This document shows, piece after piece, positions 20,381 through 58,310 of a stretch of DNA of 64,000 nucleotides (the stretch's first letter is position 1; each line of letters starts with the position of its first letter). This DNA is from Pocillopora verrucosa. Lineage: Eukaryota; Cnidaria; Anthozoa; Scleractinia; Pocilloporidae. Where the stretch lies: assembly GCF_036669915.1 (NCBI RefSeq), contig NC_089319.1, positions 16,926,012-16,990,011 of the forward strand. The letters run 5' to 3'. The notes under the pieces were generated by a model that was given only the letters and a program-made list of their open reading frames with translations, had not been told where the DNA came from and made no database searches. Position numbers and translations under genes: made by a program.

Positions 20381-22801
20381 TCATTTCTTGAATAACAATT
20401 TGTATGTACAAAGATACACTTGCTTTGTGCTCTCGATCAATGGATTTTTTCCGAACATATTCAGTTTATATTTCCCAGCTTTAGGAAGCTCACATGTTAT
20501 GACAGCCATCTTGTCAGCGGTTTCCACTGGACAAGAGTTGCCAATCTGCTTGTCATTTGCATCAAACAGCCACGACGTAATGGAAATACCGTGAGGATTA
20601 GAAAATGTGACTTTCACAATACTTTCACTTGAAGTAATGTTCTCCAACTGATCTACCAGCTTCAGTCCCCACTCCTTAAACTCGTCCTTCAGGTAGGGGA
20701 AGCCTGGGTTTGAGCTTGCTGCTTGATCAGACTTGATCATGAATGTTGCTAAATATTCACTGTCTTTGCTCTCGGGTTTTTTACCAAACACATTCAGTTT
20801 ATAAACACCAGCTTCAGGCGCATGAGCAAGAATTGTTTCAACATACTCCGCTGTGTTACTGAAGCACAAATTGTGGTCAAGATGTTGTTTTTCCTTCATT
20901 AAACGACCAAAAACTGATACATTCTCCGGGGTCTTCAGCTTAACGGAAGCTCGTCCATCCGGGGCATAAATATTGTGCTGGGGCTCTTTGAGTTCCAAGC
21001 CCCACGAGACAAAGCTGTCCGACAATCGCGGAAAGCCTGGTACAGGCTCTACACCAGCGAGTGCATTTATGTAGTAGGTACACACAAACGTATCTGATTT
21101 TCCCTCGCCATAATACTTGGCAAACACTTTCAAAGTGTACTCCCCAGCAAGTGGGCAATGCACCATCACTCGAAAGCCACTCTCTGTCCTCTCTGAGTAG
21201 CAAAATGAAAATTCACCGAAGTCTTTTTTTAGTCTCTTTTCGTCTCCCACAAGATCAAGCCGACCCACGATGTGCGAAATTTGAATGTTAAAGTTCTGTA
21301 ATGAGATGTAGGCCTTTCCATCGTCGGATACAGTGTTCTCTAATGGATGATCAAGACTGAATCCTGCTTCATAAAACTCACTTCCCAATTGTGGGAATCC
21401 GCCTCGATTTTTCTTAACTCCTCTTTTGGCCTGGATAATGTACTCTATTCCACCATGCCATCTAGTATGGATCAGCTCGTCCCTTACGTACAAATTCAGC
21501 TTGTATTTTCCTGGGGCAGGGAACTGTGCTTTGAGCTTCACTTGGTTCACCCCGCAGGGCAGAATCTGTGTCCATCTTCTTCCTTCGTATTCTCTTCCTG
21601 AGAAGTCCTTCAGATCACCTCGTAGCATCTTCAACGATGGAGTGTAGAACATCATTTCGATGTGATCTGCATCAGCAATATCATACATGCTTTCCTTGTG
21701 ACTGAGAATTTCCACTCCCATTTGGTGAATTCTTCCAGAAGGCACAACCAACTTCTCAAACTCTTCCTTACTGATGGGTTTCTCAAGGAGCTGCCATTGT
21801 TCGTCCGATGGGTAGTGGCTGTAAATTGCATACTCGGGGTCCATCAGGAACATGGACACGTTTGGGCTGCGATGGAACATCAAATCAGCTCCTAGGTAAC
21901 CAGCACCCCACGTGGGGTCACAAATGAACCACTCACCGTTGACTAGGACGCCATTCCACGCATGATTTGTCTCTTTAATCTGCTGGCCGGGCTCGAAGCC
22001 ATAACCCTTGGCGTAGCCATTTATGGTATGCACCTGAAGATCTGCAGCTTTACCAAGTGCGTCGAAAAGATTCGCATAACCAGCGCACACTGCTGTTCTA
22101 TGGCGTAGCACGCTTTCGGCATCGCCACTCTTTCTCTCCGTCCTTCCAAAGAAGCCATCCGCATCGTAGGCGACATTGAAACTCAGCCAGCGGAAAATCG
22201 CGTAAGCTTTGTTCCTGTCTCCCTCCCATCGACTTGTCAGGTAGGTGCTCAGTTTTTCGACGCTCTCAGTTTGTTCCACTGGTGTCGCGAACACGTGTGC
22301 GTCGATCTGCTTCTCGATTCCCGAGCGCTGTTTAAATTTTTCTAGTCGAATCCTTGCAAGAAACCGTCGAATGTTCGTTTGAATAAAAGCGATCGTTTCC
22401 AAAGAAATATTCGTTGCTGTAATGATATTTTCAGCATTTTTGTGATGAAATACCACCGACGGTCGAGCAAACAGGCCATGCCTCGGTGCACAAGTAAAAT
22501 AACGAACTCCATCGAAGAATCCATCGTTCCCCTGTGGATGTGGATGGTCTAACTCGATTCCTATCCACTCACCGCCACTTGGGCCGCTTAGATAACCGAC
22601 AAACTTGACAGCACCCGTGTATCCAGAAACATGCACTCGATAGCCGATGGAAAATTGATTTTCACCTCTCTCAATGAGGCTGGTGTCAGGAGCTTTATCC
22701 TCGGGTGCAGTCGGTTTTGATTCAAAGTTGTCGTTCGTATTCTGACTGTGATTTGTTGTCTCGACGGCTGTTTGGACCGATTTTGATGTTCCACATCCCA
22801 T
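20381..22801 (-). CDS. KY1: CAP-Gly / IQ / transglutaminase-like (kyphoscoliosis-type) protein, 806 residues
   Basis: A single uninterrupted coding exon from ATG 22801-22799. It starts MGCGTSKS, a Gly2/Cys3 motif typical of myristoylated and palmitoylated membrane-peripheral proteins. A CAP-Gly-like domain spans about 51-118 (GEWIGIELD, DGVRYF, HGLFARP); the usual GKNDG appears as QGNDG. An IQ-type helix spans about 136-156 (IQTNIRRFLARIR). The transglutaminase-like core spans about 200-300, with Cys239 (AVCAGY), His280 (TNHAWNG) and Asp295 (CDPTWGAGY) as a complete triad. About four beta-sandwich repeats of roughly 100 residues follow, each ending in a motif like GKYKLN(L/M). Vertebrate KY and invertebrate hillarin share the core and C-terminal region; the CAP-Gly and acylation motif suggest tethering of membrane to microtubules. 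Peptidase activity is inferred only. A non-coding 5' exon probably lies at about 23,318. Confidence 0.9.
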   Translation of the reverse strand: MGCGTSKSVQTAVETTNHSQNTNDNFESKPTAPEDKAPDTSLIERGENQFSIGYRVHVSGYTGAVKFVGYLSGPSGGEWIGIELDHPHPQGNDGFFDGVRYFTCAPRHGLFARPSVVFHHKNAENIITATNISLETIAFIQTNIRRFLARIRLEKFKQRSGIEKQIDAHVFATPVEQTESVEKLSTYLTSRWEGDRNKAYAIFRWLSFNVAYDADGFFGRTERKSGDAESVLRHRTAVCAGYANLFDALGKAADLQVHTINGYAKGYGFEPGQQIKETNHAWNGVLVNGEWFICDPTWGAGYLGADLMFHRSPNVSMFLMDPEYAIYSHYPSDEQWQLLEKPISKEEFEKLVVPSGRIHQMGVEILSHKESMYDIADADHIEMMFYTPSLKMLRGDLKDFSGREYEGRRWTQILPCGVNQVKLKAQFPAPGKYKLNLYVRDELIHTRWHGGIEYIIQAKRGVKKNRGGFPQLGSEFYEAGFSLDHPLENTVSDDGKAYISLQNFNIQISHIVGRLDLVGDEKRLKKDFGEFSFCYSERTESGFRVMVHCPLAGEYTLKVFAKYYGEGKSDTFVCTYYINALAGVEPVPGFPRLSDSFVSWGLELKEPQHNIYAPDGRASVKLKTPENVSVFGRLMKEKQHLDHNLCFSNTAEYVETILAHAPEAGVYKLNVFGKKPESKDSEYLATFMIKSDQAASSNPGFPYLKDEFKEWGLKLVDQLENITSSESIVKVTFSNPHGISITSWLFDANDKQIGNSCPVETADKMAVITCELPKAGKYKLNMFGKNPLIESTKQVYLCTYKLLFKK

Positions 22802-23460
22802 TGTCGGCTGAAAGAAACAAATAGCTACTGTCCAGTGTCGTCGCTTGTTTAGTGTAGCGTGAGAGAACTACTGCGCCACAACAATCTCTGCTTGTGTCTG
22901 AACAAAGGAACGTTGCTAATGGCAACATATAATAAGCAAATTGATCAGTCATGGATGATCAATGAAAGAGCACCAGTGAGGTTAAATGATGTAAATGGCA
23001 GCCGCGAAGCACAAAGAGCACTAAAAAAGCTTAATTTTCTAAGTTTAACCTTGTATTGACATATAGCTATGATGGCCATCTGCAATAATAACAACATCTG
23101 CTTCAAACGCGAGAAAGCCGAAATGGGCAGATCATCTTCATCAGATCTAAATACAGGAATGGCTCCGACCTGTGATTGGATGATAAAAATTGTAAAAATT
23201 AATAACTTATATCTTAACTCCTTGCTCGTGAGTATGGTTAACCGCGCGTCTCGAAGCGGAATAATGAAATGTCAATGTGAAATCACCGATGAGTCACACA
23301 AGAAATGGCTACTTACATAATGAAGAAAAGGCAGAGTCTAGCTTGTTCAGCGACGTCGTTCAGCGATATTCCGGCGATGAAAAAGGCATCCGCTGAGAAG
23401 CTCCGCTGAAAAAACTTATTTAGTCAGTTTAGGCGGACGACCAGAGACTGGAGCGTTTCG
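22802..23460 (-). promoter_or_regulatory. KY1 5' flank: likely 5' UTR intron and first exon
   Basis: Just upstream of the KY1 ATG is a clean acceptor (TTTCTTTCAG at 22817-22808), and a strong donor (TTAT|GTAAGT) lies at 23,317/23,316. This suggests a non-coding first exon reaching to about 23,460, spliced across a 0.5-kb intron. The same flank is copied beside the two KY1-like fragments at 43.4-43.7 and 53.8-54.1 kb, and the first-exon part is copied in inverted orientation at 31,565-31,755. Transcription start not determined. Confidence 0.5.
23255..23460 (+). repeat. Inverted duplicate pair of the KY1 first-exon region (copy 1)
   Basis: The sequence around CGATATTCCGGCGATGAAAA and GCGGACGACCAGAGACTGG here matches the reverse complement of 31,565-31,755. 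The two copies flank the transposon-like element and the PHD remnant. Confidence 0.6.
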
Positions 23461-36043: not shown

Positions 36044-36879
36044 AATTTCGTGAAATAAAAACAAACCTCATTTCCATAAATGGACAATGTTGTCGAAAAC
36101 AGCTAGACATCACACGCTGCGCTGACGCCAGTTTTCATTTTAGTCTGGATAGATGGCTGAGGCTTATATTTGGACTCACTGTGTATTACCTTTAAATTTC
36201 TTTAATTTTATTTTACGAATCAAACCTTTCACTACCTACTCATTTTTATGTGAGTCTTAAACTTTGAAAACTGGAAACTTTCCGTAAACATGTAAATTCG
36301 CCTTTTCTTCTTTTTATTAGCACTTAAATTAAATAAATTTACCAGCTAAGGATGTCATGAGACGACATGTTCAGCCAATCAGAGGAGAGCAAATTCCTCG
36401 TAATGATTAAAAATTATATCTGACCGCAGCATGTAGTTGGACAGGTATTGACCGTTTATTCTGTTTTTCTACCTTTCAATTATTTAAACGTTGCACGGTT
36501 CAAAAACGAGACAATTTATTTAATACCAGGTTTAGGACTTTAAGTGGGGTACTACGGAAAAGAAAGCTGCTTACGATCAATAGGGACACCCTTCACTTCG
36601 TATCCGCAACATCGCCTAGCTTCTGTTTTCCAGAGGAAGTATCCAAGTTGGAGGCTTTTGCTTACAATATCAACAAAAGGAAAGAATATACCTTTAAAGG
36701 CCAGGCCGTATTTTTAACGTTGGAAGTCAAACTTTATCTGCTTAACATTTATCTGCTTAATATTTATCGACAAATTTAATTGTTTACATTTCTACACCAT
36801 CTTTAACTACGACCACAGAAACTCGTCTTTGAGATCGAGATCACACAAATGTTCAGTGACTTGTATGAGTAAAACATGT

Positions 36880-37049
36880 GACTTGGTTACCCAAGGTTTA
36901 TCAAGGAGTAGGGGGAGAGCGTTGGTCGAAATGGAATTTCGCGAGTTGCTTTTCGAGGTTGGAACGACTTGGTTACCCAATTTTTATCAAGGAGTACGCG
37001 GAGAGTGTTGGTCGAAATGGAATTTCGCGAGTTGCTTTTCCAGGTTGGA
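36880..37049. repeat. 85-bp tandem duplication
   Basis: The segment starting ACTTGGTTACCCAA at 36,881 recurs at 36,966 with few differences (both continue GTCGAAATGGAATTTCGCGA). Block 2 has only one related copy near 50,117. Confidence 0.75.
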
Positions 37050-37345
37050 AAACGTGGAGAAAGGACAATGTTCAACGACCGAAAATCGATCCACATGTTA
37101 TGAAAGGCTGAAGAAAAGAAGTTGAGCCATATTGGTGGGAGAACAACGCACTCTCCCATACTGACAGAAACTAAGATGTTTCACTACAAACACTATAGAG
37201 GGACATTGATTAAAAATTAAAATTATTGCAAAACTTCAACTCAGTGCAAGAGGCGTCTTGATTTTCTCTCCGCTATGTTGCCGTGAAAAAGAGCCATGTA
37301 CCCAGTCTCACTCACTGATAGTCGAGTGGGACTGGTGTTCACAAT

Positions 37346-38231
37346 ATGAATGTTCGTTCTGAAGCAGGAGGAAGATCGAGATACCAAGATTTAATTCGAA
37401 GGTGAGTTAATCGAGTATTTGCTACCAAATCACAAGTTTTATTAGAATTTCTTAAATTCAAACTAGATTTCTAAATTTTGACATCTTTGGGAGTTAAAAC
37501 CATCCTATATTAAGAACACATTCTCCTCCTCCTTCCTCGACTGGATGAAAACTTGTTTTCCACGCCTTGCGAGATAGCTAGTTGACGAAACCAAATCGTA
37601 GTAAGCCAACAGAGGTCACATCCATTTTAAGTTAGTTCGAGATCAATTTTTGCGAGCGGAGCTCAATGTTCAGAATTAATTATATATACTCAAAATTATA
37701 CCCAAATAGTTTGAAAAAAAATGCCTTCTTGCTCATCGATATTGGTTTTGATTTAGGTTCCTGGTTATAAGTGAAATGGCATCTTCGCACTCACTGGTAA
37801 GTGTCTTATATCACTACTCACCCTTTATGCACGGATGAAATAGAACCGGCCCACAACGTAATGCGAAAAGAAATCATACACCAGTATATCTTAAAAAACT
37901 AATCTTTGAAAGAAGAAAGAAATTGCTTTAAATTAAAAGCAATATGCCTACTCATATTTGTCTGCATATGTGCAATGCTCGTTTTCATAGATTTTCAATA
38001 TCTAATTTTCGACTCTTAATATACACACAAGTTTTAAATTTCTCCTTACCTGATTTTTTTCAAGTTGATGTTATGTGCGTTTGTTTTTATTTTTGTGAAT
38101 TTTATTTTTTTTTGTTTACCCTGATTACTGTATTTTATGTCTATGTAAGGGGGGGGGGGGGGAGCTCATGGTAAAAAGCTCGATGGTTTCCAAGTGAGCC
38201 TCTTCACCAGGAAGAATGAATGTAGTAAAGA

Positions 38232-38266
<35 letters not shown>

Positions 38267-38402
38267 TGAGCACTCTGGCATGGCTTAGATGATCCCACAT
38301 ATGTGAGATCACTTGGGGTGGCTATATAGTCTTACCTCCATCCTAGCATCAGCACTGCACTGATGAGGCCCAGAAGGCCGAAACAGTACTGTCTGCAGTT
38401 AG

Positions 38403-38436
<34 letters not shown>

Positions 38437-41400
38437 CTAACTGCATATATATGCATATATAACTATATATAACATGCATATATAACATGCATATATAACT
38501 ATATATATATATATATATCAAAGGAACACAGAGTAAGTGAAAAATTTTTATGCTTTATATTTGGTGAGTAGCGCGTTCATCTTTTGGGAAAAAATGAAAA
38601 TTTGTTTTCATATTCTCAAACCTAATAGAGTGTTTCGGATCTCTCATTTTTGTAACACTTCATTGTAAATTTATCCGGTGGAGGTGACATTACTTATTGA
38701 CAGCATCATTTCTCTGTAACCATTCTTCATGACGTTTCTTCACCACAGTTTCTAGAGAGTGCACCTGAACATATAGAGGGAAGGAGCGGTAATGACACCC
38801 TAGAGAGGTGAGAATCGTTACTTGATGTACCAAAATTTGTTTTGTAGATCACCTCTGATCAGAGACACCTTTTCGATTTGGAAGAAGAGCACAGGAAGTA
38901 AAATTTCAGTTTAAGGTCCATCAATACCGTCATGAGTATAGACTACGTTCTAGACAACGTGAAAGAAGTGTACGTTCGGCCCAGTTTGCTGTCGTTTGGT
39001 CCATTTCTAAAGTAGTAGCTAGGTGTAAATTGGGGCATTTTTGTGTAGTTGGGTGTAGTTTGAGCTGGTCTGCTGTAGTTGGAGCAGTTTGGTGTAAGTT
39101 GATATAATTTGGAGTAATTGGTGTAGATCAGTGAAGTTTGGTGTAGTTGATGTAGTTTGGTGCAAGTTGATGTGGTTGGTGTAGTTAGGTGTGGCTGATG
39201 TAGCTTGATGTTCCTGGCGTTGTTGGTATGGCTGGTGTAGATTGGTGCAGAGCCTTATGAATGTCTAAAACTATTAAAGGTTAAATTGATTGTCAACTGA
39301 TTAAATAGCGTTTATAAGAGGAGTAGTCAGAGGAAAAAAAGGGAAGACGGAATTATGAGAAATAATATGCGTGTTTCATCTGATTTTCAGTGTTGATATA
39401 CTGTCTGATGAAATGAGTGGAATACTGGAAAGTGTCTGTGACGTGCAGGTAAGCCATGCTCTCCTACAACGAATTAATTATGAAAATCAATCAGTTGTGC
39501 AGAATGTTTTTGATATAAATCTATTTTCACTCTTAAGGGTTTCAAGAATTCGATAATTTAGGCTCATTTTACGCTGTGCATCAACAATACAATGTTAACG
39601 CGTGTACCTCAACTCAAACTGAATCAAAAGGCCGATAATCTAGATGTAAAACATATGTGGAAGATCAAAAAAATCTGCTTATTAATGCATAAACATCTAT
39701 TTGTTTTCAAAATCAGGATAGTTCGGGAATCCCACCTGTATTGAGCGAGACCTCAAGGTAAGTCCATTTAGTAGACAATTATTTATTCCGTAAGAGAAAC
39801 TTACCGGGTGTAATAATGTGCAAAAATATCAGAATGAAAAGCATGATATCAAAGAAAGAGAAATCAGGTTAATATAGATCAAGAGTTTAATTGTGGTTTT
39901 TCTTCTCTTTTATCTTTCATGTTGTTTTCTTTCAGAGACAGGGAGGTGAAGAAAGAAGTCAACTCACGGACTATAAGAATAAGAGAATGGATACTAGATC
40001 AGGTGGGTAAGGAAACTGCATGACTTGGTCTTAGGTCCACAAACTTCAAACCTCAAACCCTGGCTGGTAATTATCAATTAGAGAAACAAACAATGATGAG
40101 AACAACGTAGTTACAACTGAAATCTCCAATCAGTCCTTAGTTCCTAACACTGCACAAGGTCACCCTCAAGAGGCTAACCAAATAAAGTTCTGTGACAGTC
40201 AAGTGATTCTTAGGGACGGACCATTACTTCTCTGGAGAGGGGTATGAGAAATGTTCTTCTACAAACATTTTTTTCCAACATCATCTTCGTGCAAACATTT
40301 TTTTTTTCCATTTCTTTTTCAGTGTTCTTTTTATTTGGGCTAAATGTTGCCATTGCCTTACTGAAATATTTTACGAATGTGTAATGTATGTCAAGAACTA
40401 CAGCTGCTTGAACCATTTTGTCTATCGTTTTCTGGATTTTATTCGTTTGTGTCGTTCATGAAATTAATTGACTTCTGAAATATGTATTAAGTTGCAATGA
40501 TAAATATAACCAAGATCGAAGAATATTATTTTTTACATACAGTTTTGAGGAAAATACCTGATATATGAGGTTTTGTAGTAGGACAAAATGTTGACAAGTA
40601 ACGTTGAGGTTTGATTGCCACAATAAGTTCCCATTTTTTCAAGAAATCTTCAGACAGTCATTTTCCGATTTGTCATTTGCTTAATACAGAGTGACCACAT
40701 TTTAGTGCCCAAATTGTGTTAATTTTTATACTAATGCTTCAAGTTGTTATGTTATCTTTTCTAATTTCAGTTTTGGTTATGATATTTTTTAATATCTTAC
40801 CTGACTTCTCCGCAAACATTTTTTTTACCTTATCACGTTTGCAAACAATTTATTTTGTCTTTTCAGACCTTGCAAACAATTTTTCCAATATTTCTTATAC
40901 CTCCCCTTCCAGAAAAATAATGGTCCGTCCCTTACCACACCATATTTTGAGCTCTAGGAGAGTACTTTGCGTCAGTGGGAGAGTATAACAGGGTAATTTA
41001 GTAGTATCGACTGAGTTTAAACTCATTACGGCGGCCAATTTACGTTATTAACTCAGTTGATAATACTAAATTAATCAGTCTGGAGCAGTCTGGTGTAATT
41101 TGGTGTAGTTGGTGCATTTCAGTGTGGTTGATGTAGTTTGGTGCTCTTGCTGTTGTTGGTGTAGTTCGGTGTAATTTGGTCTAGTTTAGTATAGTTGGTG
41201 CAGTAGGATATAGTTTGGTGCAATTGGTGTGCTTGGCATACGTCGATGTGGTTTGGTGCAGTTTGGTGTACTTTGGTGTAGCCTTGTGTAGTCTGGAGCA
41301 GTTTGGCACAGTTTGGTGTAATCATGATAGCGGAGCTCGAGGAGCGTAGCCCCATAGTTATACAAAATAGTAGTAACCCATCAAGCCGAGAAAATTTGGA

Positions 41401-42346
41401 TGTACGACCCTACGACCGTACAACCGACCGTACAAGGTGCTACTTTTAGCATGCACGGCTAACTGTACCGCGAGCACTATCTTATAATCAGTCCTCTACA
41501 CGGACACGGAGAAGTTGCGAATGAAAGTCCATTAATATTACCACGCACTTTATCCATAGTAGGAGCTTTAGTTTTGCTGAAGAGAAGTGCGGGGAAAAAA
41601 AAAGTGAGCTCCGCTTTTAGGCTTGCCTAAATCTATATATTATTTGGTGCAATAAGTGTGGGCTGTTGTTGCTGCTATAGTTTGGTGTAGATGGTGTAGT
41701 TGACGTGGGTATGTGCATTTCTGTGCAGTTGGCGTAACTGTTTGTAATTGGCTTACTTTTGTGCAGTTTGAGTTAGTTGGTGTAGTTTATCATTTCGTTG
41801 GAGCAATTTAGTGTAGTTTGATGAAGTTTTGTGTAATTAGTGTGCTTTGGGGAAGTTGGTGTAGCTGGTGTGCTTTGTTATAGTTTGGTGTGGTTGGTGT
41901 AGTTTCGTGAAGGTGGTGTAGTTTTTTGTATTTTTATCAATCAAGTATGAAAATACGAGACCATGAATTAACAAGCAGAAATATGCGTGATCACTGTTTT
42001 ACCCTATTCTTACCGTAATAAGATCAAATCTTTAACTACGTTCATGAAGTCCTAGATATAAAATCACTCTCCAGGTAAACGCCAAGAATTAACCCATCCT
42101 GTAAGCACAAATAAAGCGCAGAACATTTTGGTTTAAGTTATTCACGCTGTCCTCAATCGTTATGACTGCTGCACAGTCATTAAATGTGGGATTATAACGA
42201 TCACCTTCAGAACGAATGAAAATATTATCATCACAAACGTTCAGTACTTTCTAGCCTAGTAAGGGTTTTCTTTTGACGACTAATTAAAGCTGTAATGTCT
42301 TTGTATAAGATTTCGTTCTTTTATTTCACAGGCAACTGAAGGATAA
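37346..42346 (+). CDS. Unrecognised small multi-exon gene, about 108 residues
   Basis: Seven short exons join in consistent phase with GT-AG borders: 37346-37401, 37757-37796, 38848-38897, 39391-39448, 39717-39757, 39936-40002, 42332-42346. They run from ATG to TAA and total 327 nt. The product is acidic then basic, with segments such as ITSDQRHLFDLEEEHR, VDILSDEMSGILESVCDVQ and RTIRIREWILDQ. There is no signal peptide, membrane segment or known domain. A further exon-like piece at 38749-38807 is open but, if included, throws the next exon out of frame and stops at 38914; it may be a cassette or poison exon. The introns carry a LINE-free mix of microsatellites, the ribozyme and minisatellites. 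Block 2 repeats the later exons, which supports their reality. Function unknown. Confidence 0.5.
38149..38162. repeat. Poly-G run of 14
   Basis: An uninterrupted run of 14 G. It could adopt a quadruplex and is prone to assembly length error. Confidence 0.9.
38233..38262. repeat. (TA)n microsatellite upstream of the ribozyme
   Basis: About 15 TA units directly before the sequence carrying the hammerhead motif. TA repeats are favoured insertion sites of Penelope-like elements. Confidence 0.85.
38354..38399 (+). ncRNA. Hammerhead ribozyme, type I
   Basis: All conserved core bases are present. Stem I pairs ACTGCA (38354-38359) with TGCAGT (38394-38399), 6 of 6. CUGAUGA is at 38360-38366. Stem II pairs GGCC (38367-38370) with GGCC (38376-38379) around loop CAGAA. 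GAAA is at 38380-38383. Stem III pairs ACAG (383-386) with CTGT (389-392) around a two-base UA loop. The predicted cleavage is after C38393 (GUC). Such type I motifs with minimal stem III are known from animal Penelope-like elements and retrozymes. Flanking TA repeats agree. No reverse transcriptase belonging to it was found nearby, so it is probably a short or truncated, non-autonomous copy. Confidence 0.92.
38396..38443. repeat. Perfect TA-centred palindrome at the ribozyme 3' end
   Basis: GCAGTTAGTTAT and its complement ATAACTAACTGC bracket about 12 TA units. The left arm overlaps ribozyme stem I. Further palindromic TATGCATATA sequence follows to about 38,515. Confidence 0.85.
39000..39250. 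repeat. TTGGTGTAG-type minisatellite, intronic
   Basis: Degenerate units around GTTTGGTGTAGTTG fill this part of the intron between the third and fourth exons of the small gene. On the minus strand one frame is free of stops, giving Thr/Pro/Asn/His-rich spurious ORFs. Confidence 0.75.
40992..41073. mobile_element. Palindromic MITE copy (GGTAATTTAGTATTATC family)
   Basis: Left arm GGTAATTTAGTAGTATC and right arm GATAATACTAAATTA bracket CGGCCAATTTACG. The same family occurs at 51,554-51,631, 52,044-52,119 and 58,311-58,616. Confidence 0.6.
41090..41330. repeat. TTGGTGTAG-type minisatellite
   Basis: The same degenerate unit as at 39,000. It lies in the long last intron of the small gene, directly beside a MITE copy. 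Confidence 0.75.
41640..41940. repeat. TTGGTGTAG-type minisatellite
   Basis: Continuation of the intronic array after an unrelated stretch at 41,340-41,640. The block 2 counterpart is 52,400-52,690. Confidence 0.75.
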
Positions 42347-42929
42347 AAAAAGGAACCGAAGTAATTTAATATGTTTTAGTTTTCTGTAATGGGTTACTAT
42401 AAGGATTAATAGTAAAAATAAATTTGAGTTGTATATTTTAAATTATTTTAAAGGATAGGCTCTTTCAAATTTTATTTTCTGTCAATGAAAAGAATTTTAC
42501 CCATATCTTGAGCTATGACAGTGAAAACATCTCATTAAGATGGAATTCTTTACAATCCTTAAATGTTCAATAAAAAACCACTGTTTACCTACATGCTTCA
42601 TCTTTGTAATATGTCAGAATATGCAACACACAAAACGTTCAATTGCGATTATCTTATAGCTTTGGGGTGCTAAAAGAAATGGAAACTCAAGTAGGTCATC
42701 GCCTCTAAATATTCATTAAAGTATGTGGTACCCGAACGAACCTCTAGTTGCCATTGATTCATTAGTTCCTCTTCTTTGCGAGCTAAGCCCAGAAAATAGG
42801 CCATTTTACAGTTGTGTACTTAGTTGCCAAGCCTTTGATTTGGAGTGAGGCTGAAAGAAACTTCGTTGTGATAGAGACCGGTTTCTAGTTAACACGATAT
42901 CAAAATAATTTACATTTGAAAAGGAGCAA

Positions 42930-43357
42930 CGTCGAATGTTCGTTTGAATAAAAGCGATCGTTTCTAAAAAAATACTCGTTGCTGCAGTAACATTTTCAAC
43001 ATTTTTGTGATGAAATACTGCCGACGGTCGAGCAAACATGCAATGCCTCTGCTCACAAGTGAAATAACGAACTCCATCGAAGAATCCATCGTTCCCCCGT
43101 GGATGTGGATGGTCTAACTCGATTCCTCTCCACTACCGCCACTTGGGTCGCTTAGATAACCGATAAACCCGACGGCACCCAATATCCAAAAACATGCACT
43201 CTGTGGCCGATGGAAAGTTGATTTTCACCTCTCTCAATTAGGCCGGTCTCAGGAGCTTTGTCGTCGAGTGCAGTCGGTTTTGATTCGAAGTTCGTCTTCT
43301 GACTGTGATTTGTCGTCTCGACGACTGTTTGGACCGATTTTGATGTCCACATCCCAT
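42930..43357 (-). pseudogene. KY1-like 5' fragment, block 1
   Basis: It matches KY1 from the start codon (43357) through the CAP-Gly region to the IQ helix (AFIQTNIRR), then stops matching at about 42,930. A single-base deletion right after MGCG shifts the frame, another shift occurs near 43,180, and the rest of the gene is absent. The KY1 5' flank is also present to about 43,680. The block 2 copy at 53,375-53,803 shares the early deletion, so both descend from one broken ancestor. Confidence 0.8.
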
Positions 43358-45020
43358 TGTTGGCTGAAAGAAACAATGGCCACTGTCGTCGCTTGTTTAG
43401 TGTAGCACGAGAGAACAACTGCGCCTCAATAATCTGTTCTTGTGTTCTAATGAAAAAGGGAACGTTGCTTATAGCAACATAATAAGTCGATTGCCATGAT
43501 CAGTCATGGATGATCACTGAAAGAGCAACAGCAAGGTTAACTAATGTAAATGGCAGCCATAAAGCAAAAAAAGCAGTAAAAAAGCTTCATTTCCTATGTT
43601 TCACCTTGTGTCGATATATAAGTACGATGGCCATCGGCAATAATTACAACATGTGCTTCAAACACGAGAAGGCTTAAGTATGCAGGTTATTTCAGCGGGA
43701 GTCATCATTATGTATTTTTTTGGCAAAATCAGGATCCGGGTGTTCAGGAGTTTGGGATCACGGATCAAACGTTATTGGAAAATAAACGAAAATTAATAAT
43801 AGAAAAAAATAGAAACAAAGTAATAAATGATAAACGCATCATCGGCAGAAATATTGGACAAGATGGCGGCCGCGCTTGCGCATTTCGTCCATAATGGCGT
43901 CTAAATAATTTAAGAAACGGTATGGAAATTTATAAAATTTCTAAAATATAACAATCAGGAGCTCATGGTTCCGTCTGCTCTCGATCGAGACATATTCAGT
44001 ACTGATTCTGCTATTCATCAAACCTCACAGGGACTCGATAAATAAAAACCACTTACTCCCCGAGCCAGTTCTTTTATCATTGATTATTGACCTAGGTCGC
44101 CATACATTTCTTCAAAATCCGTCGTTCTCCATCTCAAACACTCGCCTATTACAGGAAAGTGCATCAATAAAGTCAACTGCTCTCGATCGAGTTGACTGCT
44201 ACAGAGTTCGAAGCGTCCAAATATCCTGTAAAATTGCCATTTCCTCCTATCAAAAAAGTTCCCAACGCGCCAGAATATCCCTTATTTTCCATGTTGAGTA
44301 AGTGACGCCATATTGAAAACTATGACTGAAATAGTCAAACACGAGCAACGCTGATCTTCGAATCGTCGGCCATATTTGTTTATGTTCTTGCAGGGAAATA
44401 AATTAGTTCTCGGTCCTTTTCGGAATAAAAATTTGCCAGGCATTGAATGCAAATTCAGTAGTCTTAGCGCGAAAATTAAATTAAAGCAAATCAAAATTCT
44501 GACATCATGTCATCGCTCTGCCTCGAAAAATCCCAAAGATTTACTTGCAGGTCTTCTTTTCTTTTTCTTTTCATCAAATAGAAGATCTGCGGTGCTCAAA
44601 TTGTATAAGTCATGGTACGAAACACTCTTCTTTGCAGATTGAGCCGTGATCACCGGCATATTGAATAATTCTCTTGATATTCTATTGTTCCGGAGTGTAA
44701 GACGATATACCGCTGATAATTGTTAGCGGGCTCGAAATATCCTTAATTTCTGGCGATGTACAACTGTTCAATAATAATTATACGCGAAATACTTGATTAA
44801 AGTTCGCCTGTTTACAACTTTTTGAGAAGTAACTTAGTTATCTTAGATCTCTTTGAAGACCACAAAGAATTTCCCTCGTGTGTTCTCTAATCAATGACAA
44901 TTATGCCAGACCGATAAAAACGGGAGTTTAAATGCTCTAGGCAACTTGTGAAATTGGAGTCTTAAAATAGGAAAACGATTCAACTCAAGCTCTCGTTCAA
45001 GAGACCAGTCATTTTTCCTC

Positions 45021-45140
45021 GCTCGGGTGGGGAGGGAGGATTTGGGGGAATGACATGTTTTTCAGGGGGAACGGAAGGGGGAGTCGTTATAAGCAGACTA
45101 TAAGGGGGGGGGGCTATAGAAAACTGACTGTCAAGGAAAG
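45021..45140. repeat. G-rich patch, block 1
   Basis: Several runs of four to ten G (GGTGGGGAGGGAGG and similar) occur; the counterpart is at 54,513-54,645. Potential quadruplex-forming sequence. No gene. Confidence 0.6.
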
Positions 45141-45344
45141 GGGGGGCATCAGAGTTCTACAGAGCCTAAGGGAGTATCAGGTAGAATTGAATTGTGGCAC
45201 AACTAGACTCCTCTGACCCCCTGCAAGGCGACAAATGATGACCAGTCCCTGAACTCACGATTAGAAAACGCAATGTGCTTCATTTGCTCACCAACGAAAT
45301 ATTTTTGGTCTTTAAAGTCGCATTTGGTTTAATTAGCTTAGGTA

Positions 45345-46421
45345 TAATACTTTGTATGTACAAAGAAACACTTGTTTTGTGCTGTCAATAGATAAATTTG
45401 TCCCAAAAACATTTAGTTTAAACTTCCCAGCTTTTGGCAGCTCACATGTTATGGCGGTCATCTTGTTTATGGGCATCAAACAGCCATGGCTTTAAAGCGA
45501 TACCGTAAGGATTAGAAAGTGTGACTTTAACATGGCTGACATGTGAAACGATGTTCTCCAACTGATCTATCGGCTCTAGTCCCCACTCCTTAAACTCGTC
45601 CTTCAGGTAGGAGAAGCCTGGCTTTGAGCTTGCCGCTTGATCAGACTTGATCATGAATGTCGCTAAATATTCACTGTCTTTGCTCTCAGGTTTTTTACCG
45701 AACACATTCAGCTGAAAAACGCCAGCTTCAGGCGCATGGGCCAGAATTGTACCAACACACTCCACTGTGTTACTGAAGCACAAACTGTTGTCAAGATGCT
45801 GTTTGTCCTTCATCAAATAACGAACCACTGATACATTATCCGGGGTCTTCAGCTTAACGGAGGCTCGTCCATCCGGGGCATAAATATTGTGCTGGGGTTC
45901 TTTGAGCTCCAGGCCCCACGAGACAAATCTGTCAGACAATCGCGGAAAGCCTGGTACAGGCTCTGCACCAGCGAGTGCATTTACGTAGTAGGTACACACA
46001 AACGTATCTGATTTTCTTTCGCCATAATACTTGGCAAACACTTTCAAAGTGTACTCCCCTGCAAATGGGCAATGCACCATTACTCGAAAACCACTCTCCG
46101 TTTTCTCTGAGTAGCAAAATGAAAATCCACCGAAGTCTTTTTTGAGTCTTTTTTCCTCTCCCATATGGTCAAGTTGGTCCACGATGTACGAAAATTGAAT
46201 GTTAAAGTTCTGTAATGAGATGAAAGCCTTTCAGTCGTCGAATACAATGTTCTCGAATGGATAATCGAGACTGAATCCTATTTCATAAAACTCACTTCCG
46301 GACTGTAGGAATTCGCCTCGATTTTTCTCAACTCCTCTTTTGGCCTGGATGATATACTCTATTCCACTATGCCATCTAGTATGGGTCACCTCGTCCCTTA
46401 CCTACAAATTCAGCTTGTATT
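45345..46421 (-). pseudogene. KY2-like 3' half, broken
   Basis: It matches the KY2 C-terminal beta-sandwich repeats from the VRDEVTHT region to the end (IVSHVSHVKVT and LKPWLFDA agree with KY2 rather than KY1). Homology starts abruptly at 46,421, where unrelated sequence leading into the SAM-like repeat is joined. An in-frame TGA occurs near 46,232 (FDD*KAF), and a deletion near 45,465 removes the KQIGNSCPVE region and shifts the frame. No triad, CAP-Gly or start remains. Confidence 0.85.
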
Positions 46422-49371: not shown

Positions 49372-51553
49372 ACTGAGAAATTCAAAACAAGTTTCATTTC
49401 CATAAATTAACGATGTTCTTGAAAACAGCTGAAAATCACACGCTGCGCTGAGACCAATTTTCATTTTAGTCTGGATAGATGGCTGAGGCTTGTATTTGGG
49501 CTCACGATGTATTACCTTTGAATTTTTTAAATGTATTTTACGAATCAAACCTAACGCCATCTACTAATTATTAAATGAATCTTAAATTTGCAAAACTGGA
49601 AACTTCTCGCAAACATGTAAAGTCGACTTTCGTTTTGTATTGTTTGTATTTTTTGTCGTGTAAATTCACCAGCACAGGAATAAATACTCCCTGGGATGTC
49701 ATGAGACATGTTCAGCCAGTCAGAGGAGAGCACTTTCCACGTAATGGTTAAAATTAAATCTGACCGCAGCAAGTAGAGGGCAGGTATTGGCCCCCTTTTC
49801 TTCTTTTTATACCTTTCAATTTCAAAACATAGCATGGTTCCTTGCTTTGGATTGTCTCAAAAGCGAGGCGATTTATTTAATACCAGGTTTAGGACTAACA
49901 CGAGTCACTTTTCAAGCTTCGCCTTAAATTATAGTTTTCAAAGAGTTCAAATATGCTAACGAAAGAGAGACTTCAGAAAACAAGTGGAGGACGGAAAAGA
50001 AGGCCGCGTATGATCAATAGGGACACTCTTCACTTCGTATCTACAACATCGCCTAACTTCTGTTTTCCAGAGGAAGTATCCAAGTTGGCGGTTATTGCTT
50101 CCAGTATCACAAAACGTTGGTCGAAGTGGAATTTCGCGAGTTGCTTTTCGAGTTTGGAAAACGTAGAGAAAAGCGACGTTCAACGACCGAAAATAGATCC
50201 ACACGTTATTAAAGGCTGAAGAAAGGAACTTAGGCCAAATTGCTAGGGGAAGAATGCACTCCCCATACTGACAGAAACTAAGATGTTTCATAACAAACAT
50301 TATAAAATGACATTGACTAAAACTTAAAATTTTGCAACACTTCAATTCAAAGCAAGAAGGCGTCTTTATTTTCTTTCCATATTATATTATATATATTATG
50401 CGAAGCCATGGGTTTTTCGAGCTTTGTAACCGAGCCTACGCACTGGGAGTCGAGTGGGACCGGGTACAAAATTACCCATGCTGCTCTGGGCCTGTACATT
50501 TCATTCCGAGTTGAGTTAAATATAGTATGTACTTGGTATACCGTCTAAAAATGAGTGGAATTCCGGAAAGTGTATCTAACGTGCAGGTAAGCTATGCTCT
50601 CCTACAACCAATTAGTTATGAAAATCAATAAGTTGGGCAGAATGTTTTCGACTTAAGTCTATTTACTCTTAAACATGAAACTCTATTCATGAAACTCATG
50701 AAACTCTCTAACATGAAACATTAATGAAACTCTTAAGGTTTCAAGAATTCAATAATTTAGGCTCATTTCTACGCTTTGCACCAACAATTAAATATTGAAG
50801 TGCATCTCAGCTCAAACTGAGTCAAAAGGCCGATAATGTAGATATAAAACATGTGGAAAAAATCTGCTTAGTAGAGCATAAACATCTATTTGTTTTCAAA
50901 ATCAGGATAGTTTGGGGATCCAAAATTCAACTAATGGAGGTTTGAGCCAGACCTCAAGGTAAGTTCGTTTCGTCTGGAGAAGTTTGGTGTAAATTGGTGT
51001 AGTCGGTGCATTTTAGTGTGGTTGATGTAGTTTGGTGCTCTTTCTGTTGTTGGTGTAGTTCGGTGTAGTTTAGTAATTTTGTTCTCAAAATCAGGATAGT
51101 TTGGAGATCCAAAATTCAAATAATGGAGGTTTGAGCCAGACCTCAAGGTAAGTTCGTTTCGGTAGACAATCATTTATTCCGTAAATGAGATTTACCAGGT
51201 GTAATAACATACATCAGCTTAGAAAATACCACAATGAAAAGCATGATATCAAAGAAAAAGAAATGTTAATATAGATCATGATTTTAATTTTCCCTTTCTT
51301 TTCTTTTATCTTTTATGTCTTTTCTTTCAGAGACAGGCAGATGAAGATAGAAATCAACTCACGGACTATAAGAATAAGGGAATGGATACTAGATCAGCAG
51401 GTAAGAAAACTATATGACTTGGTCTTAAGTCCACAAACTTCAAACCTCAAACCCTCGCTGGTAATTATCAATTAGAGAAACAAATAATGATGAGAACAAA
51501 AAAGTTACCACTTAAGTCTCCAATCAGTCCCTTAATCCTAACACTACACAAGG

Positions 51554-51631
51554 TCAGTATTATCAACTGAGTTGAAACTCTTTATGGTGGCCAATTTACG
51601 TTATCAACTCAGTTGATAATACTAAATTACC
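51554..51631. mobile_element. Palindromic MITE copy
   Basis: CAGTATTATCAACTGAGTTG on the left and GATAATACTAAATTACC on the right, around GGTGGCCAATTTACG. Confidence 0.55.
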
Positions 51632-52043
51632 CAGTCTGGAGAAGTTTGGTGTAAATTGGTGTAGTTGGTGCATTTTAGTGTGGTTGATGTAGTTTGGTGC
51701 TCTTTCTGTTGTTGGTGTAGTTTGGTGTAGTTTAGTAATTTTGTTCTCAAAATCAGGATAGTTTGGGGATCCAAAATTCAAATAATGGAGGTTTGAGCCA
51801 GACCTCAAGGTAAGTCCGTTTTGGTAGACAATCATTTATTCCGTAAGTGAGATTTACCACGTGTAATAACATACATCAGTTTAAAAAATACCACAATGAA
51901 AAGCATGATATCAAAGAAAAAGAAATGTTAATAAAGATCATGATTTTAATTTCCTTTTCTTCTCTTTTATCTTTCATGTCTTTTCTTTCAGATGAAGAGA
52001 GAATTCTCCAATCAGTCCCTTAATCCTAACACTACACAAGGTC

Positions 52044-52119
52044 AGTATTATCAACTGAGTTGAAACTCTTTACGGTGGCTAATTTACGTCATCAGCTTAG
52101 TTGATAATACTAAATTACC
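52044..52119. mobile_element. Palindromic MITE copy
   Basis: Same family and layout as 51,554-51,631, also followed directly by TTGGTGTAG-type minisatellite. Confidence 0.55.
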
Positions 52120-52690
52120 CAGTCTGGAGAAGTTTGGTGTAATTTGGTGTTGTTGGTGCATTTTAGTGTGGTTGATGTAGTTTGGTGCTCTTTCTGTTGT
52201 TGGTGTAGTTCGGTGTAGTTTAGTATAGTTGGTGCAGTATGATGTAGTTTGGTGCAGTCGGCGTACTTGGCCTACGTTGGTGTGGTTTGGTGCAGTTGGT
52301 GTACCTGGCCTACGTTGGTGTGGTTTGATGCAGTTTGGTATACTTTGGTGAAGTTTGGTGTAGCTTTGTGTAGTCTGGAGCAGTTTAACACAGTTTGGTG
52401 TAATCATGTTATCTGGCGCGCTAAGTGTAGGTTGTTGCTGCTGTAGTGTTATGTAGATGGTGAATTGACGTGGGTTTGTGCATCTTTGTGCAGTTGGCGT
52501 AACTGCTTGTAATTGGCTTACTTTGTGCAGTTTGGTTTAGTTGGTGTATTTTATTGTTTCGTTGGTGCAATTTAGTGTAGATTGATGAAGTTTCGTGTAG
52601 TTAGTGTACTTTGGGGTAGTTGGTGTAGCTGGTGTACTTTGTTTTAATTTGGTGTGGTTGGTGTAGTTTCGTGAAGGTGGTGTATTTTTT
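52120..52690. repeat. TTGGTGTAG-type minisatellite, block 2
   Basis: Long degenerate array in the last intron of the truncated small-gene copy. Shorter pieces at 50,980-51,075 and 51,640-51,745 sit between the duplicated 53-nt exons. Confidence 0.75.
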
Positions 52691-53374
52691 AATATTTTTA
52701 TAACTCAGGTATGAAAATATGAGACCTTGAATCAGCAAGATTTCTTTATTTTATTTCACAGGCAACCGAAGAATAGAAACAAGAAACCAAAGTAATTGAA
52801 TTTCATTGAGTTTTCTATGAGGGTTTTCGTAAGGATTAATAGTCAAAAATAAATTTGAGCCGTATGTATAAAATATTTTTAAAGAAAAGGCTCTTTCATA
52901 TTTTTTGAAATATTAATAATATTTCTACCCAGATCTATAGCTATATTAGAATGAAAAGATGTCTCATGGCGGCGAAAAAATCTCATTAAGATGGAATTCT
53001 TCACAATCCTCAAATGTTCAATGAAAAACTATTGTTTACCTACATGTTTTATCCTAGTAATATGACAGAACATGCAAAATAAAAAACGTTCAACTGCGAT
53101 TAGCTTTGGGGTGTTAAAAGAAATAGAAACTCAATATGGTCATCGCCTCTTAATGTTTATAAAAGTATGTTGCGCCTGAACGAACCTCTTGCTGTCATTG
53201 ATTAATTAAATGTCTTTTTTTTGCAAACTAAGCCCAGAAAATAGGCCATTTTACAATTGTGTACTTAGTTGCCAAGCCTCTGATTTGGAGTGAGGCTCAA
53301 AGTAACTTCGTTGCGATAGAGACCAGTATCTAGTTAGCATGGTAACAAAGTAATTTACATTTGAAGGGCAGCAA

Positions 53375-53803
53375 CGTTGAATGTTCGTTTGAATAAAAGC
53401 GATCGTTTCCAAAGAAATATTCGTTGCTGCAGTAACATTTTCAGCATTTTTGTGATGAAATACCACCGACGGTCCAGCAAACATGTCATGCCTCTGCTCA
53501 CGAGTGAAATAACGAACTCCATCGAAGAATCCATCGTTCCCCTGTGAATGTGGATGGTCTAACTCGATTCCTTTCCACTCACCGCCATTAGGGTCGCTTA
53601 GATAACCGATACACCTGACAGCACCCATGTATCCAAAAACATGCACTCGGGGCTGATGGAAAATTGATTTTCACCTCCCTCAGTCAGGCTGGTTTCAGGA
53701 GCTTTTTCGTCGAGTGCTGTCGGTTTTGATTCGAAGTTCGTATTCTGACTGTGATTTGTTGTTTCGACGACTGTTTGGACCGATTTTGATGTCCACATCC
53801 CAT
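53375..53803 (-). pseudogene. KY1-like 5' fragment, block 2
   Basis: Matches KY1 from the start (53803) to the IQ helix and stops at about 53,375. It has the same one-base deletion after MGCG as the block 1 copy and another frame change near 53,650. The CAP-Gly part (GFFDGVRYFT) is otherwise readable. The KY1-like 5' flank extends to about 54,120. It lies 1 kb downstream of the intact KY2 stop codon. Confidence 0.8.
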
Positions 53804-54817: not shown

Positions 54818-57271
54818 TTAGCTTAGGTATAATACTTTGTATGTACAAAGAAACACTTGTTTTGTGCTGTCAATAGATAAATTTGTCCCAAAAACATTTA
54901 GTTTAAACTTCCCAGCTTTAGGCAGCTCACATGTTATGACGGTCATCTCGTCTGCGGTTTCCACCGGACAAGAGTTGCCAATCTGCTTATTATTGGCATC
55001 AAACAGCCATGGCTTTAAAGCGATACCATGAGGATTAGAAAATGTGACTTTAACATGGCTGACATGTGAAACGATGTTCTCCAACTGATCTATCAGCTCT
55101 AGTCCCCACTCCTTAAACTCGTCCTTCAGGTAGGGGAAGCCTGGGTTTGAGTTTGCTGCTTGATCAGACTTGATCATGAATGTTGCTAAATATTCACTGT
55201 CTTTGCTCTCAGGTTTTTTACCAAACACATTTAGCTGAAAAACGCCAGCTTCAGGCGCATGAGCCAGAATTGTGCCAACATACTCCGCTGTGTTACTGAA
55301 GCACAAACTGTTGTCAAGATGTTGTTTGTCCTTCATTAAATAACCAACAACTGATACATTCTCCGGGGCCTTCAGCTTAATGGAGACTCGTCCATCCGGG
55401 GCATAAATATTGTGCTGGGGCTCTTTGAGCTCCAGGCCCCACGAAACGAAGCTGTCCGACAATCGCGGAAAGCCTGGTACAGGCTCTACACTAGCGAGTG
55501 CATTTATGTAGTAGGTACACACAAACGTATCTGATTTTCCCTCGCCATAATACTTGGCAAATACTTTCAAAGTGTACTCCCCTGCAAGTGGGCAATGCAC
55601 CATCACTCGAAAACCACTCTCTGTCTTCTCTGAGTAGCAAAATGAAAATCCAGCGAAGTCTTTTTTGAGTCGTTTCCCCTCTCCCACCAGGTCAAGTTGG
55701 CCCACGATGTGAGAAATTTGAATGTTAAAGTTCTGTAATGAGATGCAAGCCTTTCCGTCGTCGGATACAATGTTCTCGGATGGATAATCAAGACTGAATC
55801 CTGCTTCGTAAAACTCACCTCCTAATTGTGGGAATCCGCCTCGATTTCTCTCAGTTCCTCTTTTGGCCTGGATAATGTACTCTATTCCACTAAGCCATTT
55901 AGTATGGGTCACCTCGTCCCTTACGTACAAATTCAGCTTGTATTTTCCTGGGGCAGGGAACTGTGCTTTGAGCTTCACTTGGTTCACTCCGCAGGGCAGA
56001 ATCTGTGTCCATCTTCTTCCTTCGTATTCTCTTCCTGAGAAGTCCTTCAGATCACCTCGTAGCATCTTCAACGATGGAGAGTAGAACATCATTTCGATGT
56101 GATCTGCATCATCAATATCATACATGCTTTCCTTGTGACTGAGAATTTCCACTCCCATTTGGTGAATTCTTCCAGAAGGCACGACCAACTTCTCAAACTC
56201 TTCCTTACTGATGGGTTTCTCAAGGAGCTGCCATTGTTCGTCGGATGGGTAGTGGCTGCAAATGGCAAATTCGGGGTCCATCAGGAACATGGACACGTCT
56301 GGGCTGCGATGGAACATCAAATCGGCTCCTAGGTAACCAGCACCCCATGTGGGCTCACAAATGAACCACTCACCGTTGATTTGAACTCCATTCCACACGT
56401 GATTTGTGTCTTTAATCTGCTGGCCCGGCTCGAAGCCATAACCCTTGGCGTAGCCATTTATGGTATGCACTTGAAGACCCGCAGCTTTACCAAGTGCATC
56501 AAATAGATTCGCATAACCAGCGCACACTGATGTTCTGTGGCGTAACACGCTTGCGGAATCGCAAGTCTTTTTCTCTGTCCTTCCAAAAAAGCCATCTACA
56601 TCGTAGGCGACATTGAAACTCAGCCAGCGGAAAATCGCGTAAGCTTTGTTCCTGTCTCCCTCCCACCGACTTGTGAGATAGACGCTCAGTTTTTCGACGC
56701 TTTCAGTTTGTTCCTCTGGTGTCGCTAACACATGTGCGTCGATCTGCTTCTCGATTCCCGTGCGCTGTTGAAACTTTGCCAGTCGAATCCTGGCAAGAAA
56801 TCGCCGCATGCTGGTTTGAATGAAAGCGATTGTTCGAGGATTAATACTCGCGGCTTCCTCAATTGTATCCACATCTGTGTGGGGAAACACATTGGACGGT
56901 CGAGCAAACATGCCATGTCTTGGTTTACACGTAAAATAACGGATGCTTTGAAATAACCCATCATTTCCTTGTGGATGTTCTCGATCCAACTCAATTCCTA
57001 TCCAGTCACCATCGCCTAGTTCGCTGAGACTTCCGATGAACTTCACACTACCTGTGTATCCAGAAACATGAACGCGGTCACCGATGGAAAATAGGGGATT
57101 TGTTACGCTTTCTGTAAGCTCGGCCTCATGAGAAAAGATTCGCGGCTTGTTGCTAAGAGAGTTCGGCTTTGATTCAATGTTTTCGTTGACTTCGCGTATA
57201 AACGGCTCGGTTTGGCCCTCATTTGTAGATACGACAGCAGTTTCGACGGATTTCGACGACCCACATCCCAT
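54818..57271 (-). CDS. KY2: CAP-Gly / IQ / transglutaminase-like paralogue, 817 residues
   Basis: A single coding exon. The first ATG is 57271-57269; upstream in-frame codons (TTG ACT GAG GCA ACA) are not a start. The N-terminus MGCGSSKS again fits dual acylation. A CAP-Gly-like domain spans about 62-129 (GDWIGIELD, IRYF, HGMFARP; QGNDG for GKNDG), an IQ-type helix 147-167, the transglutaminase-like core about 210-310, and then about four beta-sandwich repeats. Cys250 (SVCAGY) and His291 (TNHVWNG) are kept, but the triad Asp is Glu306 (CEPTWGAGY), so activity may differ from KY1. KY1 and KY2 are closely similar from the CAP-Gly to the end and differ most in the first 60 residues. No first-exon homology to KY1 was found upstream. 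Same strand as KY1, with broken copies between. Confidence 0.9.
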   Translation of the reverse strand: MGCGSSKSVETAVVSTNEGQTEPFIREVNENIESKPNSLSNKPRIFSHEAELTESVTNPLFSIGDRVHVSGYTGSVKFIGSLSELGDGDWIGIELDREHPQGNDGLFQSIRYFTCKPRHGMFARPSNVFPHTDVDTIEEAASINPRTIAFIQTSMRRFLARIRLAKFQQRTGIEKQIDAHVLATPEEQTESVEKLSVYLTSRWEGDRNKAYAIFRWLSFNVAYDVDGFFGRTEKKTCDSASVLRHRTSVCAGYANLFDALGKAAGLQVHTINGYAKGYGFEPGQQIKDTNHVWNGVQINGEWFICEPTWGAGYLGADLMFHRSPDVSMFLMDPEFAICSHYPSDEQWQLLEKPISKEEFEKLVVPSGRIHQMGVEILSHKESMYDIDDADHIEMMFYSPSLKMLRGDLKDFSGREYEGRRWTQILPCGVNQVKLKAQFPAPGKYKLNLYVRDEVTHTKWLSGIEYIIQAKRGTERNRGGFPQLGGEFYEAGFSLDYPSENIVSDDGKACISLQNFNIQISHIVGQLDLVGEGKRLKKDFAGFSFCYSEKTESGFRVMVHCPLAGEYTLKVFAKYYGEGKSDTFVCTYYINALASVEPVPGFPRLSDSFVSWGLELKEPQHNIYAPDGRVSIKLKAPENVSVVGYLMKDKQHLDNSLCFSNTAEYVGTILAHAPEAGVFQLNVFGKKPESKDSEYLATFMIKSDQAANSNPGFPYLKDEFKEWGLELIDQLENIVSHVSHVKVTFSNPHGIALKPWLFDANNKQIGNSCPVETADEMTVITCELPKAGKFKLNVFGTNLSIDSTKQVFLCTYKVLYLS

Positions 57272-58310
57272 TGTTGCCTCAGTCAAGTTGTTAGCAAATA
57301 TTTAGTCTGCGTGCTTAAGAACACCCTCTCGTCACACTGAAAAGGAGTTCTTGATGCGATCATGTGATAACCAACGGGAACACAGTAACGTAGCGTTGCC
57401 AACAACAAATGGTTTAGCCATGATAATTAGTGAGATCTGAATGAACAAAATAATCCCAGGGGTTTTTCTCTTTTTTCCAAAATATAAAAAACAAAAAACA
57501 TAGCGAGAATTTAGCCACCTGCATGTAACTGTCGTCTCTCAAAAACAGAAATCATTGTTTTCAAATATCAGTTTAGAAGCAAGAAGCAACGAGGTTAATC
57601 CTTCACTGAAGCGTTTTTTGAATAAATTATCGGTAACAGCTTTCCCTCAAACAAGCGTAAACGATCATCGAGCTGAAACTCGAGGAAAAGGAGTCAAAAC
57701 TTGTTTCTTTATTAGATTTTATCTATTCCAAATAAAATGTCCCGAAAAGGAAAAAAACATGAATAATGTAAAGCTAGTGGTGTACTTTCCGAGGAGTAAA
57801 GGTTAACCGTTATCACATTGTCAACAAATGGTAACGACCTATTATTCTCCAAAACAATGACAAAGTTCTTCAGAGTTCAACAGAGATAAGAACTGTTTTG
57901 ATTTAAAATTTTGGTATTCCAAAACATGATAAAGAACCCTTAAGAAAATGTATTAAAAGTGTCCTCAAGCGAAGGAAAAAACAGGTATCTACTCTCTCAC
58001 CTTTGACAACAAGGTTATTCAAAGATCGCTCAGTGTCAGCCAAATTTGATCGTGTTTGTCCGTGAAAAAATAATTAACACACCAAAATAATTAATTCGGA
58101 TCGATGCTAATCGTCTCATATCACCTTTTCGCAAAGACAAGCTAAACACGCAAGATATTGTCCCCACAATACTGTAAACACTCATCTAACACCTAGTAAT
58201 AATTTTTTTTTTTCATTTGACCTGCAGATGGAAATCAAACAAAGAAATGATCCCCGTAGTTGGACTGCAATTCCAGCACTTTCAGAAAAAAAGCCTAAAA
58301 AATATTCAGG
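57272..58310. other. KY2 5' flank, no gene seen
   Basis: No exon recognised. The KY1 5' flank is not conserved here, so KY2 has its own promoter or uses an unrelated first exon. Confidence 0.4.

Follow-up and report, generated by a model that had tools for sequence, protein, structure and literature searches.

A putative 5′-truncated retrozyme copy with a well-formed hammerhead motif in a TA microsatellite of the coral Pocillopora verrucosa

Hammerhead ribozymes are described in large numbers in stony corals. The report on Acropora millepora (PMC7229834) gives more than 6000 type I hammerheads, of which 1508 are canonical and lie in tandem repeats of 220–240 bp, and mentions similar elements in other stony corals. 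These non-LTR retrozymes are non-coding and dispersed, carry a type I hammerhead with helix III, have a GC content below 45%, include variants of ~225 and 245 bp and form tandems of up to 62-mers. Retrozymes are proposed to spread via circular RNAs made by their ribozymes.

Penelope-like elements and Terminons provide a second comparison. In the accessible parts of two reports (PMC11167929, PMC3846280), Penelope-like elements have type I hammerheads, AT-rich targets, partial tandems and microhomology at their 5′ junctions. Their hammerheads lie within reverse-transcriptase-encoding elements and, according to the accessible parts of two further publications (PMC6155905, PMC7761336), are mostly minimal, usually without helix III and loop contacts.

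The element described here lies in a 64-kb stretch of P. verrucosa DNA, hereafter the window, and spans 38262–38402 on the + strand. We read it as a 5′-truncated copy of a non-autonomous non-LTR retrozyme, reverse-transcribed in sense orientation into a pre-existing TA microsatellite of an apparent intron; from the sequence, we give this reading a probability of about 0.86.

The hammerhead motif occupies 38354–38399 (+ strand) and is found by direct reading, by a descriptor and by Rfam. Stem I pairs ACTGCA (38354–38359) with TGCAGT (38394–38399), followed by the conserved core CTGATGA (38360–38366). Stem II pairs GGCC (38367–38370) with GGCC (38376–38379) around the loop CAGAA, the GAA of the core lies at 38380–38382, and stem III (ACAG/CTGT, 38383–38392) is closed by a UA loop of 2 nt. 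An equally valid alternative for stem III consists of three base pairs (ACA/UGU) closed by a palindromic GUAC tetraloop. The type I core is complete (CUGANGA...GAA, A15.1–U16.1 and H17), and the three stems of 6, 4 and 4 bp are entirely Watson–Crick, with stem I open. An earlier note on this DNA had claimed a full conserved core and perfectly pairing stems with a two-base loop on stem III; direct reading confirms both, and the motif is real and well formed. By the same reading C17 is position 38393, which places the predicted cleavage at 38393/38394. In the outer part of stem I, CUA and UAG can pair enclosing an 8-nt bulge, which with loop II gives a candidate loop 1–loop 2 region; in the full unit, folding alone suggests an alternative pairing of CAUCCUAG with CUAGGAUG.

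A descriptor requiring at least 5 bp in stem I and at least 3 bp in stems II and III, G–U pairs allowed, returned 38354–38399 as its sole match when both strands of the window were scanned. It matched seven times in 451 Mb of simulated order-2 sequence, never with stems of 6/4/4, which corresponds to an expectation of ~0.002 per window. In the covariance search suggested in the earlier note, Hammerhead_1 (RF00163) was the best Rfam match when a 69-nt region was scanned alone, located exactly at 38354–38399 (E 5.2e-5), with all 45 model positions matched and every pair standard; its 26.0 bits fall below the gathering score of 34, and the motif is not filed as a member of RF00163. Wider scans report Hammerhead_HH9 instead, at 25.1 bits (gathering score 52) and, over the whole window, E 0.068. 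No Rfam family reaches its gathering score over the window, and no hammerhead family does so in seven related loci (L009, L019, L020, L024, L043, L044, L051). Rfam matches to miRNA and snoRNA families over the TA tracts, all below gathering, were set aside as repeat artefacts.

Could the motif be a chance hammerhead-like sequence in TA-rich DNA? Its sub-threshold Rfam score would fit such an origin, as would the folding energies: the isolated 46-mer has a minimum-energy fold other than the hammerhead, favoured by 3.6 kcal/mol (−14.7 against −11.1). The hammerhead likewise costs 5.2 kcal/mol in a 243-nt circle (−65.3 against −70.5), and the 67-nt stretch 38344–38410 folds barely better than its shuffles (z −1.20). 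Yet the low expectation per window opposes coincidence, as do 75 hammerhead matches in 268 kb comprising the window and fetched loci mostly chosen for the motif, against none in the reversed control. The motif also belongs to a copy family: a 39-nt ribozyme pattern allowing up to 3 mismatches occurs at 136 places in the genome (353 Mb, 52 contigs searched) and nowhere as the reversed control. We consider a chance origin contradicted by this family and next to impossible.

The family also supports the mobile-element origin proposed in the earlier note. With a 141-bp query centred on this region, at least 45 matches were obtained, the best 40 of 182 candidates having been scored; the matches listed are dispersed over the genome and, save partial or secondary ones, 97–100% identical. 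By strand, the 136 ribozyme copies are unevenly distributed (48 on + and 88 on −). For the following measurements, the window, 39 further loci and sets of 4 and 12 were combined into 56 loci, 55 of them measurable; some share flanks and are not independent (L033/L034; L045/L067; L014/L022/L036).

Three of the 56 fetched loci (L009, L024, L043) carry a second hammerhead on the same strand exactly 243 bp upstream, and their inner repeat junction reads TGCAGTTAGATATAGC; pattern matching adds a further pair with this spacing in an unfetched locus (C10:15850252/15850495). Tandem dimers therefore exist elsewhere in the genome, as anticipated in the earlier note, but with a 243-bp period and not with the 38.26–38.40 kb unit it had proposed. 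The longest of the 55 measured copies begins 314 nt before the cleavage site, nine copies exceed one unit, and beyond 314 nt the flanks appear locus-specific, a few shared repeats excepted. The 5′ ends are variable and fall at unit positions 84–100 (23 copies), 4–10 (16), 231–240 (6) or elsewhere (10). TA or AT forms the first element base pair in 37/55 copies against 16% of unit positions, an inflated figure as alignment ends reach TA by chance.

Retrozymes have hammerhead-delimited units of ~170–400 nt that stand in tandem in some copies, and the 243-bp spacing in three loci lies within this range. They are further expected in many copies with a GC content under 50%, in line with the 136 places and the 44% GC of the unit. 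As described, the coral elements agree in topology, helix III, dispersal, tandem organisation, unit length and GC content. In contrast to A. millepora, tandems are rare here, many copies are shorter than one unit, and the insertions are linked to TA microsatellites. Retrozymes also hold two hammerheads within a copy, whereas the window copy, ~141 bp from near 38262 to near 38402 (132 nt before the cleavage site and 9 nt past it), has one. We accordingly class it as a truncated member of the family and not as a complete retrozyme.

Substitutions were compared in 39 of 40 aligned copies, L039 being left out for a 1-base deletion. Changes common to at least three copies affect 0/46 ribozyme sites and 8/92 other sites (7/91 without the junction position), and rarer changes 8/46 and 16/92, respectively; this pattern is no more than suggestive of selection on the ribozyme. 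Compensatory stem changes, which the earlier note had named as a test, are absent from these 39 copies of the young family but occur between different hammerhead families of the genome.

A degenerate hammerhead pattern was found at 115 places in the genome (control 1). Among the matches listed, most belong to the window element's family and at least eight, some with paired stem II changes, to others. The 75 matches in the window and fetched loci include families with stem II pairings of GCGC/GCGC, GTGC/GCAC, GTGAA/TTCAC and GTGG/TCAC; in L047, one of five tabulated hammerheads, stem I is lost. Outside this genome a degenerate hammerhead pattern had no match in viral contigs or in genome contigs, collections which are uninformative for animals.

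A minimal hammerhead-like motif, CTGACGAAGGGCTAACGCTCGAAACGTC, occurs at 3959 genomic places with up to 2 mismatches (control 0), evenly on both strands (1950 and 2009). We take it to be associated with Penelope elements. One instance lies in the window at 58524 (+ strand) with A.C at the base of stem II; nearby, a 151-bp inverted repeat (58309–58459) matches Rfam MIR6135 below gathering.

The abundance of this motif would favour reading the window element as a fragment of an autonomous Penelope-like element with the hammerhead in its pseudo-LTR. Type I topology, AT-rich targets, partial tandems, 5′ microhomology and inverted arrangements are common to both, and an indirect Penelope link may be drawn from these shared habits and the literature. 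However, no measured copy exceeds the 314 nt after which flanks look locus-specific, no reverse-transcriptase-encoding element was seen joined to the copies, and helix III is present here, unlike in most published Penelope hammerheads. Descent from such an element is accordingly improbable, and the non-autonomous retrozyme is the better description.

The surroundings of the copies point to a preferred target. In the window, an (AT)14.5 tract at 38235–38263 forms the 5′ junction and shares TA bases with the first bases of the element, and a TA-rich tract at 38404–38518, containing a 36-bp degenerate repeat in 2.8 copies (38409–38509), forms the 3′ junction. Throughout the family, tracts of at least (TA)3 border 54/55 copies on the 3′ side and 47/55 on the 5′ side; for comparison, 1.1% of the window lies no further than 12 nt from such a tract. 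Furthermore, an array on contig C4 contains relatives of the left flank, and four of the five paralogs (L083, L084, L085, L086) have an empty TA tract at the matching site: only TA-rich sequence, of differing length, precedes the right flank. In the fifth, L082, other hammerhead-like motifs follow the TA tract, and the 601 bases fetched end before the right flank. The flanks and the empty tracts bear out the TA microsatellite target named in the earlier note, the empty paralogous sites giving a direct view of it. Among the papers listed, judged by titles and the opening lines of abstracts, none was recognised as dealing with the targeting of TA microsatellites by retrozymes of animals. Other hammerhead-like elements lie near or within the retrozyme's TA tracts in L020, L023, L051 and L082, which suggests that TA microsatellites are shared landing sites for such elements.

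The window itself contains a direct duplication: 36058–37271 and 39393–42800 recur as 49384–50378 and 50533–53245, and the second copy lacks an equivalent of the 2.1 kb with the retrozyme (37272–39392). On the − strand, Pfam identifies CAP-Gly, transglutaminase and KY-like Ig domains in two long frames (20381–22867 and 54818–57301), shorter frames resembling the CAP-Gly/transglutaminase frames lie at 42806–46230 and 53251–53670, and degenerate TTGGTGTAGTT-like minisatellites are located at 39043–39247, 41091–41281 and 50994–52684.

The location within an intron had also been proposed in the earlier note, and paralogy upholds it. Upstream, an apparent exon at 37757–37796 on the + strand (..AG|GTTCCTGG...ATG...CTG|GTAAGT) encodes MASSHSL; with its GT donor at 37797 it is conserved, donor and acceptor included, in a C4 paralog (MASPHPL). 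Downstream, the apparent next exon (38749–38807, + strand, 3′ end uncertain here) begins ..CACCACAG|TTTCTAGAG and matches the C4 exon beginning FPANAPDIL; four C4 paralogs keep this open exon (FP[A/V]NAPDIL...) with acceptor and donor, and the matching acceptor in the window is 38747–38748. The conserved exon, donor and acceptor thus place the retrozyme within an apparent intron, with the ribozyme in sense orientation.

Cleavage of the host pre-mRNA by the window ribozyme is possible in principle, and the window copy, if transcribed, would make at most one cut in the host intron. Domestication of the ribozyme for gene regulation would go further. The intronic sense position would suit it, and conserved intronic hammerheads are reported in amniotes (PMC6155905, accessible part). 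Against it, the paralogous intron lacks the element in four of the five C4 loci, and the same sequence is scattered genome-wide at the identity of a recent repeat. A domesticated function is very unlikely on these grounds, and a lone ribozyme or host regulatory element was likewise rejected as unlikely for a scattered repeat with empty paralogous sites. The suggestion of a small circular RNA from the window copy does not hold, since a circle requires two hammerheads in tandem and the window has only one; alone, this copy cannot release a circle.

What, then, was reverse-transcribed? In contrast to the 5′ ends, the 3′ ends of the family are uniform. Copies end 8–9 nt past the predicted cleavage site, and their 3′ junctions read GTTAGTTA in 49/55, GTTA then TA or TG in 5/55 and otherwise in 1/55; the terminal sequence is TGCAGTTAGTTA followed by TA repeats in the 49 copies and TGCAGTTA followed by TA or TG in the five. 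At L080, the 56th locus, the truncation falls within the core, and the copy likewise ends in GTTAGTTA. Since a cut linear monomer would end in GTC, the extra 8–9 nt imply a template RNA that was uncut at this site or re-closed. The reverse-transcribed RNA was thus probably not cut at its terminal ribozyme, being either circular or, in our preferred reading, a read-through transcript that had inherited its (UA)n tail. On a circle, the next letters past the cut would be GATATAGC, in contrast to the GTTA that precedes the TA repeats in 49/55 copies and is absent from the internal repeat junctions seen. One inherited GTTA step explains these copies more simply, whereas a circle would need reproducible slippage; the five GTTA–TA copies fit either template alike.

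In the retrozyme reading preferred here, the RNA would self-cleave, and loci with several ribozymes would yield 243-nt monomers and circles. An enzyme of the Penelope kind would nick TA tracts and prime on an RNA left uncut at its terminal hammerhead, and 5′ ends would be joined via TA microhomology. We tentatively propose, as a possible but rather doubtful further step, that copies arise by target-primed reverse transcription of uncut read-through transcripts, the (UA)n tail derived from the parent's TA flank annealing to TA microsatellites, with circular ribozyme-cut RNA a by-product and not the intermediate of copying. If so, the ribozyme's own cut, when it came first, would limit copying. 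The accessible part of one report (PMC11167929) describes insertion in vitro as unaffected in hammerhead mutants. SINEs and LINEs with microsatellite tails similarly combine a uniform 3′ end, a following simple repeat and variable 5′ truncation; unlike them, the retrozyme includes a ribozyme whose action, if any, would remove the tail.

At the 3′ end of the window copy lies a perfect 52-bp palindrome (38394–38445), whose left arm starts at the first base after the predicted cut and whose right arm repeats the last bases of the element in inverted orientation; TA-rich repeats that contain TAACTGCA or TAACATGCA steps come next. If read-through copying is true, this palindrome could have been left by a reverse transcriptase that ran off the end of a cut RNA. 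In the 400-nt flanks examined at 56 loci, the window alone shows an exact inverted 8-nt tail, which starts at the predicted cleavage site, and the inverted copies in L033, L034 and L051 continue through the ribozyme. Inverted tails as a general habit were not accepted, as nothing follows from a single case and TGCA is a palindrome in its own right.

The window copy is most likely a dead end. The element is of a known kind, in an ordinary setting, and what makes it useful is that the 3′ ends are uniform and that empty TA sites exist. Young copies that end just past the cut site, with a step absent from internal repeats, offer a genome-level test of whether the template of retrozyme copying is cut, circular or read-through.
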